Source: Globomyces pollinis-pini (lineage: Eukaryota; Chytridiomycota; Chytridiomycetes; Rhizophydiales; Globomycetaceae). From it: DNA of 64,000 bases. Both the position numbers and the translations under genes were made by a program. The notes below the pieces were generated by a model that worked only from the letters and a program-made list of their open reading frames with translations, had not been told where the DNA came from and did not search any database. Of the stretch, positions 3,016 through 62,824 are shown in pieces. The stretch is taken from assembly GCA_025399215.1 (NCBI GenBank), contig MU621132.1:8735-72734 (forward strand), given 5' to 3'. Within the stretch, counting starts at the first letter, position 1. Each line of letters starts with the position of its first letter.

Positions 3016-3878
3016 ATGAAGAAGAGAAAGGAACCAGTTACATGTAGGAAACGGACTAAAGATACACAACAAAGTACAATCATTCCAACTAAATATAGTT
3101 ATATCAAAATATCATACCTTAGCAAAACAATTACATCAAATGAAAAAACTTGGAAATTCTGATAAAGTACAATCAATTGAACAAGAAATACATGAATTAG
3201 GTGGATTAGATACTTATCAAAGAGCTTCTTTGAAAGGTGGTGATATGAATAAAGGATTTGGTGGTTCTGGTCGTTGGTTAATCAATCAACTTAAAATTCT
3301 ATTTCCTAAATCAAACAAACAACTTACCATGTTGGATGTAGGTGCAATATCTGGTGAAGTATATATGAAACATTCATTCTTGAAAGTCACCTCCATTGAT
3401 TTAAATTCTCAATCACCATTAGTACTCAAACAAGATTTTTTTCAAAGACCAATACCAACTGATGATAATGATAGATTTGATATTGTATCATTATCTTTGG
3501 TGATTAATTTTTTAACTGATCCAGAACAACGAGGTAAGTTTTGATTATAGTTTACAAATAGGTTTTTTAATTTTCAATTCATTTGATTATATAGGGTTAA
3601 TGTTATCAATAGTTTCAAAACATTTAAAACCAGATGGACTTTTTTATCTAGTATTACCCTTACCATGTATATCTAATTCACGATACCTAAATGATAAACA
3701 TCTTCAACATATCATTGAATTATTAGGTTATCAATTGATAGTATCCCATTGTTCTAAAAAATTGGTTTATTATCTCTTTCAGTTGAAAAATCCTCCTGAT
3801 TTGAAATGTGATGTTAAAAAAGTATTGTTGGATGATGGACCAAAAAAGAATAATTTTGCAATCACTTTGAATTTATAG
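3016..3878 (+). CDS. BMT2: 25S rRNA adenine-N1 methyltransferase BMT2
   Basis: Nucleolar SAM-dependent methyltransferase of the Bmt2 family, which in yeast makes an m1A in helix 65 of 25S rRNA. Visible family blocks are HELGGLDTYQRASLKGGD, the SAM-binding strand LDVGAISG, SIDLNSQ, DIVSLSLVINFL and the C-terminal HLKPDGLFYLVLP. The start at 3016 gives a basic N-terminal tail (MKKRK...RKKR-like), as in the yeast protein. An intron of 25 nt (about 3092-3116) joins the first exon, and a 61-nt intron at 3534-3594 splits exactly into two mini-introns (listed separately). Length about 250 residues, close to the core of the family. Confidence 0.9.
3534..3594 (+). other. Stacked two-unit intron in BMT2
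   Basis: The 61-nt intron divides into 28 nt (3534-3561) and 33 nt (3562-3594). Each begins GT and ends TAG, and the junction reads TAG|GTT with no exon base between. The coding frame joins correctly (Arg-Gly-Leu) when both are removed. That the intron is removed in two steps is inference. Confidence 0.55.
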
Positions 3879-8637: not shown

Positions 8638-10285
8638 TTATTTTTTCAAATATGAGGGACGCCGGACGGCGACAGCTTTGGCATGGCTAGCGTGATTTAA
8701 TCCACTAAAAGATTGCTTTGGACCAACATTGCGACTGTTGTTGAAAAACACTTTTGGCAATCCAATTACAGGTTCGGTTTCTACTACTTTTGCAACAAAT
8801 TCCGATTGGCTCGATAGCTCATCTTCTTTCGTCTCTTCATTAAATACATCATTTATCGGTTCCAGGTCTTTCAGTGCTGAATTACGGTTTGTAGTCGAGG
8901 TTCGATTTGATTGATTGGATTGCGGTTGGATTTGCTCAAAGCTGTTTTCTTCCTTGATACCGGTGGTGGTAGGTCTATCTGCCTTGAATGATTTAGATCT
9001 ATTCCTTAGTGCTGCGAAATCGTTTGGTCTAAATGAAATTGATTCTCTTCTGGTAATTCGTGTTCTGTTGTTGCGAATGGACTGTTTCACATTTATCAGT
9101 TCTTGTACATCTTTAATCTTTGCTTCAATTATTTTTAAATTAGTGACTAAAGTGGTTTGCTTTTTACCCAAATGATCCATTTCCCTTTGAAATGATTTTG
9201 ATGCTTTTCTTTGATCATCAACATGGATCTTATATCATGAAAATAAAATCCACTTACCTTTAGTCGTCTTATATCTACTGAATCAAAATCTCTTGGTAAT
9301 ATCTCTTCTTCTTCGCTAATAATCTTTCTAAAGCTCTCTGGCTAATACTGTTTAGCATTAATATTGAAATACATTTTCATTAATTTTTGTAGCTAGATCC
9401 TTTAATGTCGAATCCGCTTCTGCTCGTTCCATTAACCAATCTTTTGCGAAATTCCATCTTCCAAGCATCCAAAATTCATTTCGTTTCTTTTCATTTTTCA
9501 AATCAACCCATTTCTGAACTTCCTTATCATATAATTTCGTTATTGTTTCAAAAAATTGTAATTCTATAGCACGGTGTTTTTCTTCCAATAACTTTTTAGT
9601 TTTCAAATGATGCTCATATTCAGAAGTCAGTTTTCGAAGGATATCTTGTTGTGATCTTAATTGCTCACCAGTTGCTAGATTGCAAATCAAATGCTGGACT
9701 TTTGTTCGAAGAAACTAACATTAAATATAAAATCAATGCCTAATATATTTTAGATAAATTTAATACCTTGATGAAGAATTAGTTGCTAATCAATATCGTT
9801 ACCTTTTTCTCCTCCATTTTATTTATCAAAGATATGATTATCAAAAGGTATTCATTCTAGATGTGAAAAGGAATGCTAAATTACGTGAATTGCTGCTAGT
9901 AATGGTTTGAAGGTTGTTGTAGATTCAATTATTGAGGTAAAACAATCATTTAAGGTATCCAATCTTACAGAATCAAACAGATTATCCGAGTTCTCGTATA
10001 CTTCTTTATATTCCTAAGTGATTAGACCACTATTTCAATCCAGAAAACCCGATAGATAGATAACAGTAAAAATTGGGAAAGAAATACATTGATGAAGGAG
10101 AATACCTTTTTGAATTTTTCTAAACATTGATCAACAGACAAATCCTGGATATCGAACTTTCTCCGATATGCTTCACGATAGACTTCTGTCTGTAACGTGA
10201 AATGATTTTCGTTGATTAATTTTGATTTGTTCAGAAATGAATAGTCGTTATTGGAGCATTTGTGGATATCGATAAGTGATCTCAT
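8638..10285 (-). CDS. BAR-like long coiled-coil protein
   Basis: Spliced product of roughly 430 residues. The first two thirds are almost entirely charged helix (for example LRSQQDILRKLTSEYEHHLK and KKRNEFWMLGRWNFAKDWL), suggesting a BAR/sorting-nexin-like or coiled-coil membrane-shaping domain. The C-terminal third is Ser/Arg/Asn-rich and probably disordered. Introns include a 92-nt one after KKFKK, one near 9833-9860, an 88-nt stacked intron at 9715-9802, about 31 nt near 9366, and 29 nt near 9253. BAR membership is inferred from helical pattern only. An upstream coding exon cannot be excluded because an open frame overlaps at 10248-10490. Confidence 0.6.
9715..9802 (-). other. Stacked intron (two or three units) in BAR-like gene
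   Basis: On the minus strand the 88-nt intron divides into 36 nt (9802-9767, GTA...AAG), 27 nt (9766-9740, GTA...TAG) and 25 nt (9739-9715, which starts GC and ends TAG). Frame is phase 0 across the whole. The third unit would be a GC-AG intron, so this is the weakest of the stacks; a single 88-nt intron is also possible. Confidence 0.35.
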
Positions 10286-10755: not shown

Positions 10756-11439
10756 ATGTTTTCTGAAGCTTGTCCTAGTTACAGGTATCCCACTCTCTAG
10801 TCTCATTAAAGTCCTTTCTTTGGTGCTATGGGTTGCGCCGTCGCTATCATCTTCTCCTGCTTCGGGGCAGCCTACGGAACTGCAAAGTCCGGGGTTGGTT
10901 TATGTGCTATGGGAGTTATGCGTCCTGAATTGATGTTGAAAAACGTTATTCCTGTTGTTATGGTAATTGTTGTTTATCTAACGTTAGGTTTGTTGATCGT
11001 GTTTAATTATTAGGCTGGTATTATTGGTATCTATGGAGTCGTCGTTGCCGTTCTATTGTCGGGTGGACGTAATTCTGTTTCTATAATTCTTTAGTTCAAC
11101 AAGAAATGACTCTATACGCTGGTTTCATTTCCCTTGCTGCTGGTTTAAGTGTTGGTCTTAGTGGTTTGGCTGCTGGATTCGCCATCGGTGTCGTTGGTGA
11201 TGCTGGTGTCCGTGCTTCTGCTCAACAACCTCGTCTTTTTGTTGGTATATTGGACTTTATCTCAAACTATTAGGAATGATTTTAATTTTAATTTTTGCTG
11301 AAGTTTTGGTAATTCTTTCTATTATTTAATATTTAGGGTCTTTATGGTCTTATTGGTATTTGATCACTTGTTTTAACATATTGTAGTTGCCCTTATCTTG
11401 AATACTAAAGCCAGCACTGGTTCCTGCCCTTCGTCTTAA
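10756..11439 (+). CDS. VMA3: V-type proton ATPase proteolipid subunit c
   Basis: Membrane-rotor subunit of the vacuolar proton pump. The spliced product (about 162 residues) follows fungal Vma3 closely through four transmembrane helices, with [46 protein letters not shown] and the proton-carrying glutamate in LIFAEVLGLYG. Six introns: about 27 nt at 10784, a 51-nt stacked intron at 10963-11013, about 26 nt at 11068, 29 nt at 11245, 28 nt at 11309 and about 31 nt at 11353. Codons are richer in C-ending choices (GCC, ATC, GTC) than neighbouring genes, as expected of a highly expressed gene. The end is TAA at 11437-11439. Confidence 0.95.
10963..11013 (+). other. Stacked two-unit intron in VMA3
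   Basis: 51 nt dividing into 25 nt (10963-10987) and 26 nt (10988-11013); junction TAG|GTT. The flanking protein (PVVM then AGIIGIYG) matches the conserved subunit c sequence exactly, so no residue is encoded between the two units. Confidence 0.6.
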
Positions 11440-14800: not shown

Positions 14801-15585
14801 ATGTCACAATCGTCATTGCTTTTAAAACAACAATTAAGAGGTAGGAATACAATTGCTGAGGATGTAGATTTAACAAGGAATCCGGTCGATGGGTTCAGTG
14901 CTGGATTACGAGATGATAGCAATATTTACGAATGGGAAGTCATGATCATCGGACCAGAAGGAACTCCTTAGTATTTATTGTTTATTAATATTGTTATAGT
15001 GAGGGTGGTTTCTTTAAGGCTACTTTGACTTTCCCAGATGATTATCCTCAAATGCCACCAAAGATGAAATTCATTGATGAAATTTGGCATCCTAATGTAA
15101 TATTTAACTCATTTAATAGCTAGGTATTGCAAATTATTTGGTAATTTATATATTTTTAGGTAATATACTGCAAAAATCTTATTTATCTAGGTATATATTT
15201 ACCCACTCAACATAAATCTTAGGTAACAATCACATACATTGTTTATATTAGGTTCATGAAAATGGGGATGTTTGCATTTCAATCTTACATGCACCTGGTG
15301 ACGATAAATATGGATACGAATCAGCCTCGGAGAGATGGTTACCAATTCATACAGTTGAAACTATTGTCATTTCTGTAATTAGTATGCTTTCTGATCCAAA
15401 TGATGAATCTCCTGCCAATATTGAGGCTGCGGTAAGTCTATACATACATAACACATACTTGTTTTGTTGCTCATGAATTTACTTTTATGATCTATTATTT
15501 ATCTCTTTAGAAACAATGGCGAGAAGATTTGAAAGAGTTTAATCGAAAAGTGCGTAGACTAGTTCGCAAAACAATTGAAGGTTGA
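14801..15585 (+). CDS. Ubiquitin-conjugating enzyme E2, UBE2G1 type
   Basis: E2 enzyme that carries ubiquitin on a cysteine and passes it to substrates with an E3; UBE2G-type E2s work in ER-associated degradation. The spliced product (about 165 residues) contains [31 protein letters not shown], the active-site GDVCISILH and the acidic loop [14 protein letters not shown] typical of UBE2G1/UBC7-class enzymes, then [14 protein letters not shown]. Four introns: 27 nt at about 14841, 29 nt near 14971, a 155-nt five-unit stacked intron at 15097-15251, and a 79-nt intron at about 15432-15510 without internal GT/AG tiling. Start is the ATG at 14801. Confidence 0.95.
15097..15251 (+). other. Five-unit stacked mini-intron array in E2 gene
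   Basis: The 155-nt intron divides without remainder into 27 nt (15097-15123), 36 nt (15124-15159), 31 nt (15160-15190), 32 nt (15191-15222) and 29 nt (15223-15251). Every unit starts GTA and ends TAG, so all four internal junctions read TAG|GTA. The units differ in sequence, so this is not a satellite repeat. Flanking residues HPNV and HENGDVC are contiguous in the protein family. Confidence 0.75.
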
Positions 15586-18050: not shown

Positions 18051-19805
18051 TTATTCAGCAATATAAAGCGATTTCATAGTGTTGTACGAGTTTCCATCCT
18101 CCGCAATAGATTCCAACAAGAGAGTCTGATATCTCTTCATATTAAGACTAAACTCATCGAGATTCTCAGAATGTGCTGTGATTGCTTCAATAATTTCATT
18201 TTCCGTCACAACATGTTCACTAGCTTTCCCAGTTTTTTGAATCAAAGTTCCAATAGATTTCGCTAAAATTACAATTGAATTTAATTTTTGTTCTGCAGCA
18301 ATTGGCCATGCAATTATGGGTGTCGCGCTCGATAAAGCCTCTATACTCGTTAGCAATTGTAAAATAAAAAATCAAGTGTATCAAAGTGAGTAGTATTTAC
18401 CAGTACAGCTATTCCAACCACAGTGGCTTAAGAATGAGTGGGTGGCAGAATGATTAAGTATCTGTCGTTGTAGTGCCCAAGTAACAACAAAACCTTTTTG
18501 ATCAACTGGGATTGGATCATCTCCATCTATAACCAGAATATCTGAAGGTAAATGTTCTATTTGATGTTTCTTTAATGCCCAAACATACCGGCAATTAAGC
18601 GTTGCTAAAGCCTTTGCAAGATTCACAACCTCTTCATCTTTAATATTGAATACAGTTCCAAAGGCGATATAAAGAACAGATGATTTCGGCTGAACATCCA
18701 GCCAATTTTCAATACTCGATTTTTTTACTGGAATCTCAGTAGTTTGGTTGTAAAATGCAACTGGTCCTATATATAGAAACTAGGGAGTAAATTGTAAACT
18801 TGATTACTTTAGTTTGTGACATGGACGGGTGCGATGACATAACATCTAATGATTCAGTGTCAAATCCATCATATGAATTCATCAAGACAGCTTTGGCAGA
18901 TTTCATAGCTTCAATCGCGTTGAAGGTTAACTTTTCCCTGGATGGTTAGCGAAGACTTGGTTATACCTAAAACAAGTTATAATTATGAGTTTCATTTACC
19001 TAAACATGAGAAATCAAAGTCTTACATTGTGAAATATTTAGCAGTATCAGCGAATGGCATTTTCTTTGCTAATACAATTAATCAAGTATCTATTACATCC
19101 TTTAAAATTGTTACAGATTGACAATAATAATGGCAAGTTAGTAATGGCCTCTTTTGCAACTTGAACAGTAATCTCCTCAGGACAAGCTGGGAGGTCAAGG
19201 AATGAATCGGGGGTTATATTTGCTATTGAACGTTGGACCAAAGCCAGAGAATTTGTTGTAGAATACAGATAATGCGATACGTTGAATGGTTTTAGAAATG
19301 GAAGCACTAAAGAGTTAATCTGAATCTAAGATTGGAAAGTGAGGTTTCAATGTAAAGAGAATTATTGTGATGTACCTGCACATGTAAACATTTCTAGTAC
19401 TACAGATGAGAATGGACTGTTCATAATTAGTATTGATTTGAAAAATACTTTAGTTCGTGAATGTCGGTTAACGCTGTGGTGGCTTCTTCAACCAGATTGC
19501 AAATAACTTCATCAGCACCGAATAAACCAGGCCCTGACGCATGATCTTTGATGGCATAATAGGATAATCCCGGTCTGTTTTCTTGTATATCAATCAACCC
19601 AACCTTTGCCAATACATTGCTAAACTTTTGAATATTGGATTCTTCAATCACGACAGTAACTAGAGAAAGTTGAGCAGGAAATAATTAATACTGTGAAAGT
19701 GATGCATGTTGATCAATACGTGAGCTAATTCCAACATTGGCACTAGATGCGAGTAATCGTCAAAAGAAAAAAAGACCCAATGTTCATTTTGAATGTTATA
19801 AACCA
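18051..19805 (-). CDS. Plant-type UDP-glycosyltransferase (GT1) with PSPG box
   Basis: Transfers sugar from a UDP-sugar to small hydrophobic acceptors. The start ATG at 19805 gives a frame running into DDYSHLVPMLELAHVL, the usual N-terminal helix; KFLYIGPVAFY marks the domain linker; and the C-terminal PSPG-type box reads WALQRQILNHSATHSFLSHC then GWNSCTEALSSATP and AWPIAAEQKLN. This HCGWNS...E...AEQ..N pattern is that of plant UGTs more than fungal sterol glucosyltransferases. At least eight introns of 23-70 nt are needed, including a 59-nt stacked intron at 18967-19025. Intron content argues it is a resident gene; its origin (ancient transfer or shared ancestry) is open. Confidence 0.85.
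18967..19025 (-). other. Stacked two-unit intron in plant-type UGT
   Basis: On the minus strand 26 nt (19025-19000) followed by 33 nt (18999-18967); both GTA...TAG; junction TAG|GTA. The codon is split AT|G (phase 2) and rejoined in frame (YFT-M-YNQVF). Confidence 0.6.
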
Positions 19806-58400: not shown

Positions 58401-61400
58401 GATTTCGACAGGGCTGAATGAGAGTAAATCTATTAAATTGGAGTAGATTATAGATTGATTGGAAGTTGATAATAAACTCCACCATTTTGAATTGATTTGT
58501 TTTAAAGCTAAATCACAACAAACCACTTGTGCCGGGTTATCGTAATTCGACAATAACTTGCTAAACGTGATCAAAGCCAGTCCAGCTTTCTTGGAAAATA
58601 AATTATTGATGGTTTGAATTTGGAAACAAGAAACCAAGTTTTCCAAAAATGGAACAGCATAAGGATCAGATAAATATTCCATAGATGATAATGATAGTTT
58701 CTGGTATTCCTTTTCAAGTACTGGTAAGATAAATCTAACCTTTTCAATACAATCGACGTTGGTTAATAATCCCAAAAGAATAGATTGACTAAATTTATCA
58801 CTAAATGCGAGTGTGTTGGATAAGAAATAATCCAATAGATCTTGTTGGATTTTGTCTTTACCAGATTTGTTGCTGGAGACTAAAAAGTGGATCATATTCA
58901 ATGCCAAATAATTTTCATCCGTCACAATCTCGTGTGAAGTTTCAATTAAATCAGTAACGAATTTACGAATAGAAGCAATATTCAAATACTGAACTTGATT
59001 GGATTTCGCGCCATAAAAAGTACCATGACCATATATAGAAGACACTGATGGGTTTTTCTTTTTCAATTTCGATAATGTCAATAACAAAGTCTTCAAACAT
59101 GTAATTGAGTTCACACGTACGGATTGATCACGATTCAGTAAACAAATCATAACACTTGGTAAAATGATTTGATAATCTTTTTCAGAATCGATACTGGTAA
59201 TCATGAATTGATTTGCTAATTGTAAAACGCAATTTTGAATCATTGGGTTCATATCAACACTAGTTGCAATTGAGAAACAGAATTCAAGGAAATGGGTTTG
59301 GATATGCGTACTGATAAATAGCGCCAATGGTTCTCGGAAATGATTCTTACCCAACAAGAAAATCAACTTGAATATGGTAATCATTAATGATTCGTATGAT
59401 TCCTATTGAAAATTAACTATAGAAAATTTACATCTTGTTTATGGAACCATACTGGATCAGTTTTGGCAGGAATGCTTTGAATTAAATTCACTAAAACCAA
59501 AATCCACATCATTTTTTCAAATTCAGCCAATCCGGCACGTTCCAAAGTCTTCAAATTTTCCAAAGGCATACCATCCTAACATCAATCAATCTTTAAAATA
59601 CCTTTAAAGCTGTTGCCCCGAATGGCTTCAATTTACGTATATAGTTCTTGGACATGTATTGTTTTTCCAAAACTGGAAGTAACAATCGAACGAGGTTTAA
59701 ATCCAATGAACTTGAAAATGTAGCAATATAATGGTTAATGACATTCATAGAGAAGACTCTCATTGGTAAGCAAGTTGATTTGAAACCATTGATAAAATAT
59801 TTGAAGTTGAATTCAGTTTGTTTTGACAATTGTGAAGTGATGGTGTGGACGATATTAAATAACGTAAACTGATCCTTTTTAGCTGATGAAAAATCAATAT
59901 TGATTAACTTCAAGATTTTGGGAACCAACTTGTTGTAATCTTGGGATTTCGTGATATCCTATGATAAGTTCAGAATCGTTACGATGGTGAGTAAGGTTGA
60001 TACGACAGAATGAATCAAATCATCTGATACAAGATTAACATTCAAAGCAACTAAATCAAACACAGCATTCAACGCTTTTAATAAAATCTGTACGGTTGGT
60101 GCATTAACGACAAGCGACAGCAATGATTTCAAAAGAGTAGCATGATGAATGTAAGTGGACAATTTCAAGTCTAAAACCAAGTCAATAATATCAGAACTAG
60201 AATCATTTAGGAATGAAGTTAAAGTTGATTCCAAGAATGATTTCATATCCGCCACAACATCTTGATCATCATCTAAAAGTAAATCTTTTAATTTTTCCAA
60301 GGAAGTTAATCTGATGTTTGAGTTTTCATGGATAAGACCGAGGTAGAGACTGGTGTTGCTATCTTCTAAAGTTTCATTCAATGAGCCTTTGAAAATAGAA
60401 TTAAGAATATTTTGCCATGCGGCTTTGACCTTCTTTGACGGTTTGCACTCCTAGGAGTTGAGTTAATGGTAAAATGAACCAAACCTTAAATAATTGATCT
60501 ATGGCGGCATCAATTTCAGCAAATCGTTGATTTTGTACTCTCTGAATAAGCAATACCGCCGAATTGTCCTCGTCCATAGCATCTTGCATATCTTCAGGTG
60601 TAGCATCATCATGTAATAAAGACCGTAACAATTCTACTAAGAAAGATTGAACACAATCGGAATTAACATCAGTGTTTGCAAGAACAAAGGCAGCGATGTC
60701 AAAGGCAGATACATGCATGTTGTTCAACATAACAGCAACAAGTGAATGAGAGAAAGCTTTCATAAATACGGCAGTTTCAAACTTAGATAGAATTCTTTTC
60801 AATTCAACTTGAAGGTTTCTAAATTTAGTGATTGGTATGCGTTACGTTTGATTCAAGATGTTACGAATGGCTGACTGTGGGAATGACTCTATTGTTTGAT
60901 TTTGAAATAAAGTGACGAGACAAAGCAATGTCACGTAGAGATTTTCGGTGATGATATTCTCGGTGATAGCTTCGATTAAACGACTTAGGACATCTGAGTC
61001 AAATACAACCTTTTTGGATAATAAACCTACAGTTCAGTGAAGGTCGTTCAATACCTATCATTAATTACAAGGAAATTACCTAATAGCATTTGCATCGTAG
61101 CCCGGAATTCCAAATCACTAGAAGCCAATCCTTGCAATAAATGGGGTAAGATCAATCTCAAATGATTATCAGTAACAATTTTCAAAGCGTGGTAAAAGTT
61201 AATGACAATGGTTGCATAAAAGCATTCTAGATTTTTGTTTACTAGTCCAGAGTTTCTACTTTCAGCTGCCTATAAATATTAGCATGGTCACTTCACGGAA
61301 GAAGTTAAAAAAACAGAAAGTAAATTGAAATGTAATGATGAGAATGAAAATAAACATGAGCAAATTCAAATATGAAATGTACAGATAGGGATATTGTCCA

Positions 61401-62064: not shown

Positions 62065-62824
62065 TCATATTGTTCCCACTGACCATATATCCAAATCATC
62101 TAATTTACGTACCATATCCTTAGTCAACACTGTCACTGGTTGGACACTACGCGACTGAATAGTTTGTGTGGTATTGCCAAGAACCTAACAATAAATTAAC
62201 TCATCATACCATCCTATTATGTCAGTAACATAAGTTTACTTGGACAGCCAGGTCTGGTCTTCATTATCAAGGAAAAGTACTACTCGTCTTGGATTTAAGC
62301 TGGTGATTAAATTTATGACATGCTCCGCTTGATCTGATTTGTTTCTCTCTATATCCACTCTGAATTCGAAATCCTGTCGTTTAGAGTCTGATTTTGCTAT
62401 GGTTGCGATTGCTTGTAATCGTATTGATAATGCATGAGCTTCCTTTGCCTTTAAAGCAGCTACTCATAAAAACTCCATTAAATTACCTAATCATTCAGAT
62501 TAATTACTCGATCGTCAGTTACCTATACATTAAATCCTTTGTTGAATACCTAAATCATTAAATGATTACTGGTTACCTATACATAAGTACTAAAATAGAT
62601 ACCTAAATAGAATGAATTTAAAGCTAATTACCAAAGCCGTCAGTAGAACGACCACCAGGAACTTGAGGTTAAATAACATAGAATTTACTAGAAGGATACG
62701 CACAACCAGCAATGACAAGAGTATCACCAGCAGCTACCACTGATTTAATAGTCCATAGGATAGCAGGGCCTACTAGAGCACTTTCATCTACAGCTAGCAG
62801 TACAGTTTGAGAATGGTCATTCAT
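62065..62824 (-). CDS. Universal stress protein (UspA domain)
   Basis: About 170 residues after splicing. N-terminus TVLLAVDESALVGPAILW is the first Usp strand and helix; the C-terminus LGNTTQTIQSRSVQPVTVL has the ATP-binding layout G-2X-G-9X-(S/T)-like plus the final strand. Usp-domain proteins bind ATP in many cases and respond to stress; function here is unknown. Introns: 27 nt (62662-62688), a six-unit stack of 172 nt (62460-62631), and a pair of mini-introns flanking a 4-nt exon (62185-62239). A further GTACGT at the C-terminal end suggests the last codons could be an intron start. The ATG at 62824 is only 51 bp from the divergent gene at 62875, so a shared promoter is likely. Confidence 0.75.
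62185..62239 (-). other. Pair of mini-introns around a 4-nt microexon in USP gene
   Basis: On the minus strand: a 26-nt intron (62239-62214), a 4-nt exon reading GATG (62213-62210), and a 25-nt intron (62209-62185). Including GATG gives ...LSK-M-VLGNTT in frame; removing all 55 nt as one intron shifts the frame, and the other AG choices tested give stops. So frame logic calls for the microexon. Confidence 0.6.
62460..62631 (-). other. Six-unit stacked mini-intron array in USP gene
   Basis: 172 nt that divide exactly, in transcript order, into 29 (62631-62603), 26 (62602-62577), 27 (62576-62550), 27 (62549-62523), 36 (62522-62487) and 27 nt (62486-62460). Each unit starts GTA and ends TAG; all five junctions read TAG|GTA. 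Units differ in sequence and several have an ATTTAAT or TAAT-like branch segment 8-12 nt before TAG. Exons join as TDGF-A-ALKAKEA in phase 1. Confidence 0.8.

Follow-up and report, generated by a model that had tools for sequence, protein, structure and literature searches.

A probable stack of six mini-introns with zero-length exons in a Usp-like gene of the chytrid Globomyces pollinis-pini, and similar arrays across its genome

The window considered here is a stretch of 64,000 nucleotides (nt) from the chytrid fungus Globomyces pollinis-pini (assembly GCA_025399215.1, contig MU621132.1, positions 8,735 to 72,734). On its minus strand it carries a predicted Usp-like gene whose coding sequence is interrupted at 62631-62460 by 172 nt (flanks on that strand: ...GACGGCTTTG before and CTGCTTTAAAGG... 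after). This sequence splits without remainder into six units of the form GTA...TAG (Table 1), each with its own uninterrupted GTA and TAG, and all five inner junctions read TAG|GTA with zero exon bases between the units. An earlier description made from the letters of the window alone (hereafter the sequence-only reading) had proposed this partition into units of 26-36 nt, and it is borne out. The gene name given by that reading is weak, as the Pfam family Usp matches with E 2.6e-4 and 22 bits, under its cut-off of 24, and a search with a hand-joined query one residue short of the model's protein returned no relative at E <= 1e-3.

Table 1. Arrays, their units and a neighbouring single mini-intron in the window
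Feature	Position	Strand	Details
Six-unit array, Usp-like gene	62460..62631	-	172 nt; sequence partition and gene-model calls
Usp unit 1	62603..62631	-	29 nt, GTA...TAG; unit coordinates by arithmetic
Usp unit 2	62577..62602	-	26 nt
Usp unit 3	62550..62576	-	27 nt; TTAAT, its A 9 nt from the end
Usp unit 4	62523..62549	-	27 nt; TTAAT, its A 8 nt from the end
Usp unit 5	62487..62522	-	36 nt; TTAAT, its A 14 nt from the end
Usp unit 6	62460..62486	-	27 nt; TTAAT further up, its A 19 nt from the end
Ordinary single mini-intron, same Usp-like gene, upstream of the array	62662..62688	-	27 nt
Five-unit array, ubiquitin-conjugating enzyme gene	15097..15251	+	27, 36, 31, 32, 29 nt; UQ_con spans the junction
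Three-unit array, segment without Pfam family	18938..19025	-	26, 33, 29 nt
Two-unit array, U3snoRNP10-domain gene	61027..61079	-	25, 28 nt
Two-unit array, Bmt2-domain gene	3534..3594	+	28, 33 nt; junction TAG|GTT
Two-unit array, gene with ATP-synt_C domains	10963..11013	+	25, 26 nt; junction TAG|GTT
Doubtful chain	9715..9802	-	36 + 52 nt

Among 20,000 dinucleotide-preserving shuffles of the Usp array, none partitions into units of 20-40 nt, whether TAG|GTA or AG|GT is taken as the junction, and none contains five TAGGTA words. The units are mutually unrelated, each of the 15 pairs being matched in similarity by 7.6% or more of the pairs drawn at random across different contigs. For this array, chance and a minisatellite are rejected on these two grounds. 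Removal of all six units restores the reading frame (TTT G|CT GCT), and each of the 63 patterns in which at least one unit is kept shifts or closes it. We consider it probable that six complete mini-introns are stacked in the 172-nt sequence, separated by exons of zero length and removed unit by unit, and that the genome contains many such arrays. A near-array was read by hand in the same gene at 62185-62239 (minus strand), where a predicted 4-nt exon, GATG (62210-62213), lies between introns of 26 and 25 nt.

For the wider intron population, a small gene-finding model was trained on the window and 20 systematic 10-kb stretches (264 kb; window and L031-L050). It places 670 introns in this sample: 598 single introns of at most 40 nt (mean 28.4 nt, standard deviation 2.9 nt), 18 chains comprising 49 units, and 23 single introns of greater length; most introns of the sample measure 20-39 nt. 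The 18 chains contain 31 inner junctions without exon bases, so that internal exons of 0 nt number 31 and those of 1-10 nt only 7. Two of the chains, each with a long unit (52 or 73 nt), are doubtful. Of the 49 array units, the 47 that do not exceed 40 nt show no difference in length from the single introns (Kolmogorov-Smirnov p 0.68, in a set that depends on the model), in agreement with the sequence-only reading, which had taken the units to be sized like ordinary introns. Whole decoded arrays range from 51 to 285 nt, and the longest comprises ten units in a phytanoyl-CoA dioxygenase (PhyH) gene (L014:1419-1703, contig C12). Chance coincidence of intron insertions is rejected, since arithmetic predicts about one shared position for about 640 introns spread over 197 kb of coding sequence, compared with 18 chains. 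Outside the window, 11 chains in 200 kb extrapolate to about 1,000 in the genome (roughly 500 to 1,800 by Poisson limits), or to about 560 if only the 6 that also pass the chain-blind test described below are counted. By extrapolation, the number of arrays in the genome may thus range from several hundred to a thousand or beyond. In the same sample, six internal exons measure exactly 15 nt, the commonest length among those of 1-30 nt. An in-frame stop occurs in 152 of 176 mini-introns with a length that is a multiple of three and in 280 of 422 others, a comparison that the gene model may bias.

The word that marks the junctions is non-randomly spaced over the whole genome (18.5 Mb, 459 contigs). 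TAGGTA occurs 3,911 and 4,035 times on the two strands, and pairs with a gap of 14-44 number 415 (177 + 238), against 100 (47 + 53) with a gap of 80-110, outer pairs within arrays included, and 82 (38 + 44) with a gap of 200-230, a few of them also within arrays. The reversed word, which is 2.8 times commoner, gives 532, 526 and 447 pairs in the same three classes. Triples of TAGGTA number 107 versus 21 for the reversed word, and about one would be expected by arithmetic from the 82 pairs. Absence of a genome-wide enrichment at this spacing was among the outcomes that the sequence-only reading had named as refuting it, and the enrichment is present. From 100 listed triples of the 107, 86 rows were kept, corresponding to at least 59 clusters and 157 distinct units. 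These units were picked by their TAGGTA ends alone, with 20-50 nt allowed; they span 21-36 nt, and 156 of the 157 fall within 23-37 nt, like single introns. The branch-like motif YTRAY stands near the 3' end in 66 of them and near the 5' end in 26, and its reverse complement is found near the 3' end in 21 of the 157. A second pooled set repeats the enrichment of a branch-like motif near the 3' end (21 of 55 units versus 3). In all 18 pattern-picked loci that were fetched, the trained model lays a chain of introns across the TAGGTA pattern.

Protein domains provide evidence of a different kind. A Pfam scan covered 30 segments around arrays, among 48 junction entries, and in 21 of the 30 the matched domain spans the array junction (the Usp-like gene included, though under its cut-off). 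The clearest cases are UQ_con (6e-49, five units) and PhyH (3.7e-43, ten units), and further clear ones are Ssu72, Vps35, Tfb2, PMM and two protein kinases. In the other nine segments, the family ends short of the junction (5), no family is found (3), or the case is undecidable (1, ATP-synt_C in two stretches). A public phosphomannomutase from contig C12 is 100% identical to the predicted 173-residue protein with a two-unit array removed. Over 47 arrays, two of which are truncated copies of others, only 20 of 1,649 patterns that keep at least one unit stay open, and 36 of the 47 arrays have no open retention pattern at all. Complete removal is therefore needed at the protein level almost throughout. 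Together with the genome-wide spacing, the unit size and the branch-like motifs, the domains joined after removal give good support to the stacking across zero-length exons that had been proposed from the Usp array.

One public gene model might be taken to point the other way. The PhyH protein BC833DRAFT_47563 (P0121) has 19 additional residues where the ten-unit array lies, and by a hand-read unit match these correspond to units 4 and 8 in frame; retention of this pair is one of only 4 open patterns among 1,023. This would fit a reading in which some units are regulated micro-exons and the arrays yield protein variants. However, the two relatives that were read, P0122 and P0124, are without the 19-residue insert, and neither the Usp array nor the 36 arrays mentioned above leave an open pattern for such use; we regard micro-exons as quite improbable. 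A choice or error of the gene finder is the more likely source of the P0121 insert, a real isoform being less probable. Arrays of this kind may mislead gene finders, and other public gene models may be affected too.

With regard to the origin of the units, neighbouring units are more alike than random ones (p 5e-11, with rows that are not all independent). A neighbour pair exceeds the random 99% level in 16 of the 59 clusters, which thus contain near-copies, and neighbours are identical in two clusters (C12:42111 and C168:4851); the remaining 43 clusters have no near-copy pair. The statement of the sequence-only reading that the units are unrelated and form no tandem repeat holds for the Usp array, but in those 16 clusters neighbours are recognisable tandem copies. 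Comparison of 14-mers among the 598 single introns and 199 distinct units (264-kb sample and listed triples) gave 18 sharing pairs, 11 of them within the arrays of one contig and the other 7 partial matches rich in A and T. No sign of a dispersed element behind the units was seen in this comparison, and dispersed introners are rejected as their source, since clear similarity stays inside arrays. Near-copy neighbours and 14-mers shared inside the arrays of one contig suggest that local tandem duplication is at least one source of the units. The near-copies in 16 clusters are also what a minisatellite would leave behind. Nevertheless, chance or a minisatellite as an account of the arrays in general has a negligible probability, given the shuffles and the unrelated units of the Usp array, the location of the decoded arrays in predicted genes, and the domains joined upon removal in 21 segments.

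We hypothesize the following mechanism. Each unit of an array would be complete in itself, with a GT donor, a branch-like region and an AG acceptor, and the spliceosome would most likely take out the units singly, with steps of several units as a serious variant. Whenever a unit is removed, the preceding TAG would meet the following GTA, and the remainder would again be a valid array, until the last removal joins the true exons. Since every Usp unit starts with GTA and ends with TAG, each removal would regenerate TAG|GTA, so that the order may be free and the product still unique. Arrays may grow, at least partly, through tandem duplication of units followed by divergence of the copies, and such duplication could plausibly result from slippage or unequal exchange at the direct repeats of TAGGTA. 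The inner splice signals would be kept during divergence, given that the reading frame hardly ever survives incomplete removal.

Alternatively, the spliceosome may remove the 172 nt in one step as a single intron, with the inner TAG|GTA junctions being skipped relics of tandem duplication, for which the near-copies in 16 of 59 clusters could be cited. Several observations speak for this or weigh against a stack of separately spliced units. Among the longer introns of the trained run, 16 with lengths of 45-200 nt and 6 exceeding 200 nt have no such partition; hence one-step removal is possible in principle, and 30 nt is no upper limit for the spliceosome. The adaptation to introns of about 30 nt claimed by the sequence-only reading thus agrees with the size of most introns, but does not amount to a limit. 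The length prior of the trained model works in favour of chains. When the prior is flat and chains are permitted, the calls include only 7 chains, none above 3 units, four two-unit arrays come out as single introns, and the score is nearly the same as with chains forbidden (12336 versus 12328), so that little or nothing is gained from chains. When chains are forbidden and the prior is flat over 18-200 nt, the call is still exactly 62631-62460, as one intron, and in the flat-prior run with lengths up to 400 nt the Usp array is not among the partitioning introns listed. YTRAY is found in four of the six Usp units, only two of these having it 8-9 nt from the end. Furthermore, selection by TAGGTA favours intact junctions, and gene location was checked for those of the 59 clusters that lie in the 18 fetched loci and the window.

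Because the trained prior favours chains, a chain-blind test was made, in which the length prior was flat, chains were forbidden and 114 introns of 46-400 nt were called. Eleven of them partition into AG|GT units of 20-40 nt, compared with 0.84 expected from shuffles, and control unit windows of 5-19, 41-60 and 61-80 nt gave no partitioning intron each; all eleven belong to the 18 trained chains. This excess argues against one-step removal, as do the mini-intron size and the 3'-side branch-like motifs retained by pooled inner units, and the persistence of the partition without similarity between neighbours in both large arrays of the window. The donors point in the same direction: GT at positions +5 and +6 is found in 9 of 16 introns of 45-200 nt in the trained run, but in 68 of 598 single mini-introns and in 1 of 18 first array units. 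However, none of the 6 introns above 200 nt has it, and in the flat run the contrast (1 of 11 partitioning versus 18 of 75 non-partitioning introns) is not significant (p 0.44). CTAAY near the 3' end occurs in 8 of 16 long introns, 85 of 598 mini-introns and 3 of 18 last array units, and the contrast between long introns and last units is likewise not significant (p 0.07). In these small numbers, the arrays resemble rows of mini-introns more closely than a single long intron, and removal of the 172 nt in one step appears unlikely. As a separate observation, intron lengths in the trained run are seemingly bimodal (20-41 nt, and a small group of 74-79 nt, n=7); several of the 74-79 nt introns have strong donors or branch motifs, and the flat run partly fills the length gap.

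A variant compatible with stacked units is mixed removal, in which any donor may pair with any downstream acceptor in steps of one to three units, with the same end product. From the sequence, each partial product would again be an array, and single introns of 57-113 nt exist. In the trained run, on the other hand, single introns between 42 and 56 nt are missing, and a unit of 52 nt occurs in a doubtful chain. This gap is not firm, as the flat run has 17 single introns in the range 41-56 nt, including 4 two-unit arrays. Mixed removal is a tangible possibility that we hold tentatively, next to removal of the units one at a time, which we prefer.

Taken by itself, each unit has the GT...AG ends and the single-intron size of an ordinary U2-type mini-intron. 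It is the arrangement of units for which we compared known systems. Zero-nucleotide recursive splicing in Drosophila and mammals shares AG|GT without an exon base and, if chytrid removal is stepwise, the regeneration of a donor. The fly and mammalian sites are described in very long introns (over 10 kb), and the fly sites have a strong donor consensus, NCAG|GTAAGT, and a cryptic recursive-splicing exon (RS-exon) downstream (PMC5126111, PMC13149111, PMC8605326). The decoded chytrid arrays, at 51-285 nt, are far shorter; the inner donors read GTAAGT in 1 of 31 cases, that one in a 73-nt unit, and a unit of about 30 nt would leave little room for an RS-exon. Stwintrons of ascomycete fungi likewise place several introns at one fungal intron position, with consecutive removal, but they are nested, the inner intron splitting a signal of the outer one and leaving first (PMC7138796, PMC12403724), whereas the chytrid units lie side by side with uninterrupted signals, up to ten in a decoded array. 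Recursive splicing and stwintrons are the closest known kinds, and each lacks defining features here. Ciliate introns of about 25 nt resemble the units in their ultra-short size and in the enrichment of in-frame stops at lengths that are multiples of three; no stacks with zero-length exons are noted for ciliates in the source, in which the words tandem and concatenat are absent (PMC5014332). Introners also multiply introns within one genome, as dispersed similar copies (PMC9860276), unlike the chytrid units with their clear similarity confined inside arrays. A literature search by title and start of abstract, covering few subscription papers or preprints, found no fungal mini-intron arrays or zero-length exons.

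As for the splicing machinery, Prp18 and SF1 have two matches each in the genome. Rfam searches of the genome gave no match for U1 or U12, and the control genomes gave none either; an Rfam scan of 144 kb found one tRNA. Slu7 (PF11708) has no candidate even at E 10 in an exon-wise search that may miss it and that gave no control match either. A missing Slu7 would be notable, and we mention it as a lead only.

Beyond the Usp-like gene, the data may suggest a more general intron architecture in this chytrid, in which mini-introns multiply in place into arrays with zero-length exons and as many as ten or more units, with several hundred to more than 1,000 arrays in the genome; the arrays would be cleared unit by unit in any order, each partial product being again a valid array, and introns would lengthen mainly by whole units. 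For this broader proposition we see the balance as even. According to a 2026 review, recursive splicing is extremely rare and tied to introns measuring tens to hundreds of kb (PMC13149111). If the broader proposition is true, recursive splicing would be routine for short introns, and not a device reserved for the giant introns of animals. With hundreds of tiny arrays in one genome, ordinary RNA sequencing could directly test the order of splicing, how junctions are re-used and the size window in which introns are recognised, and near-identical units beside fully diverged ones would represent a visible path of intron growth by unit duplication.
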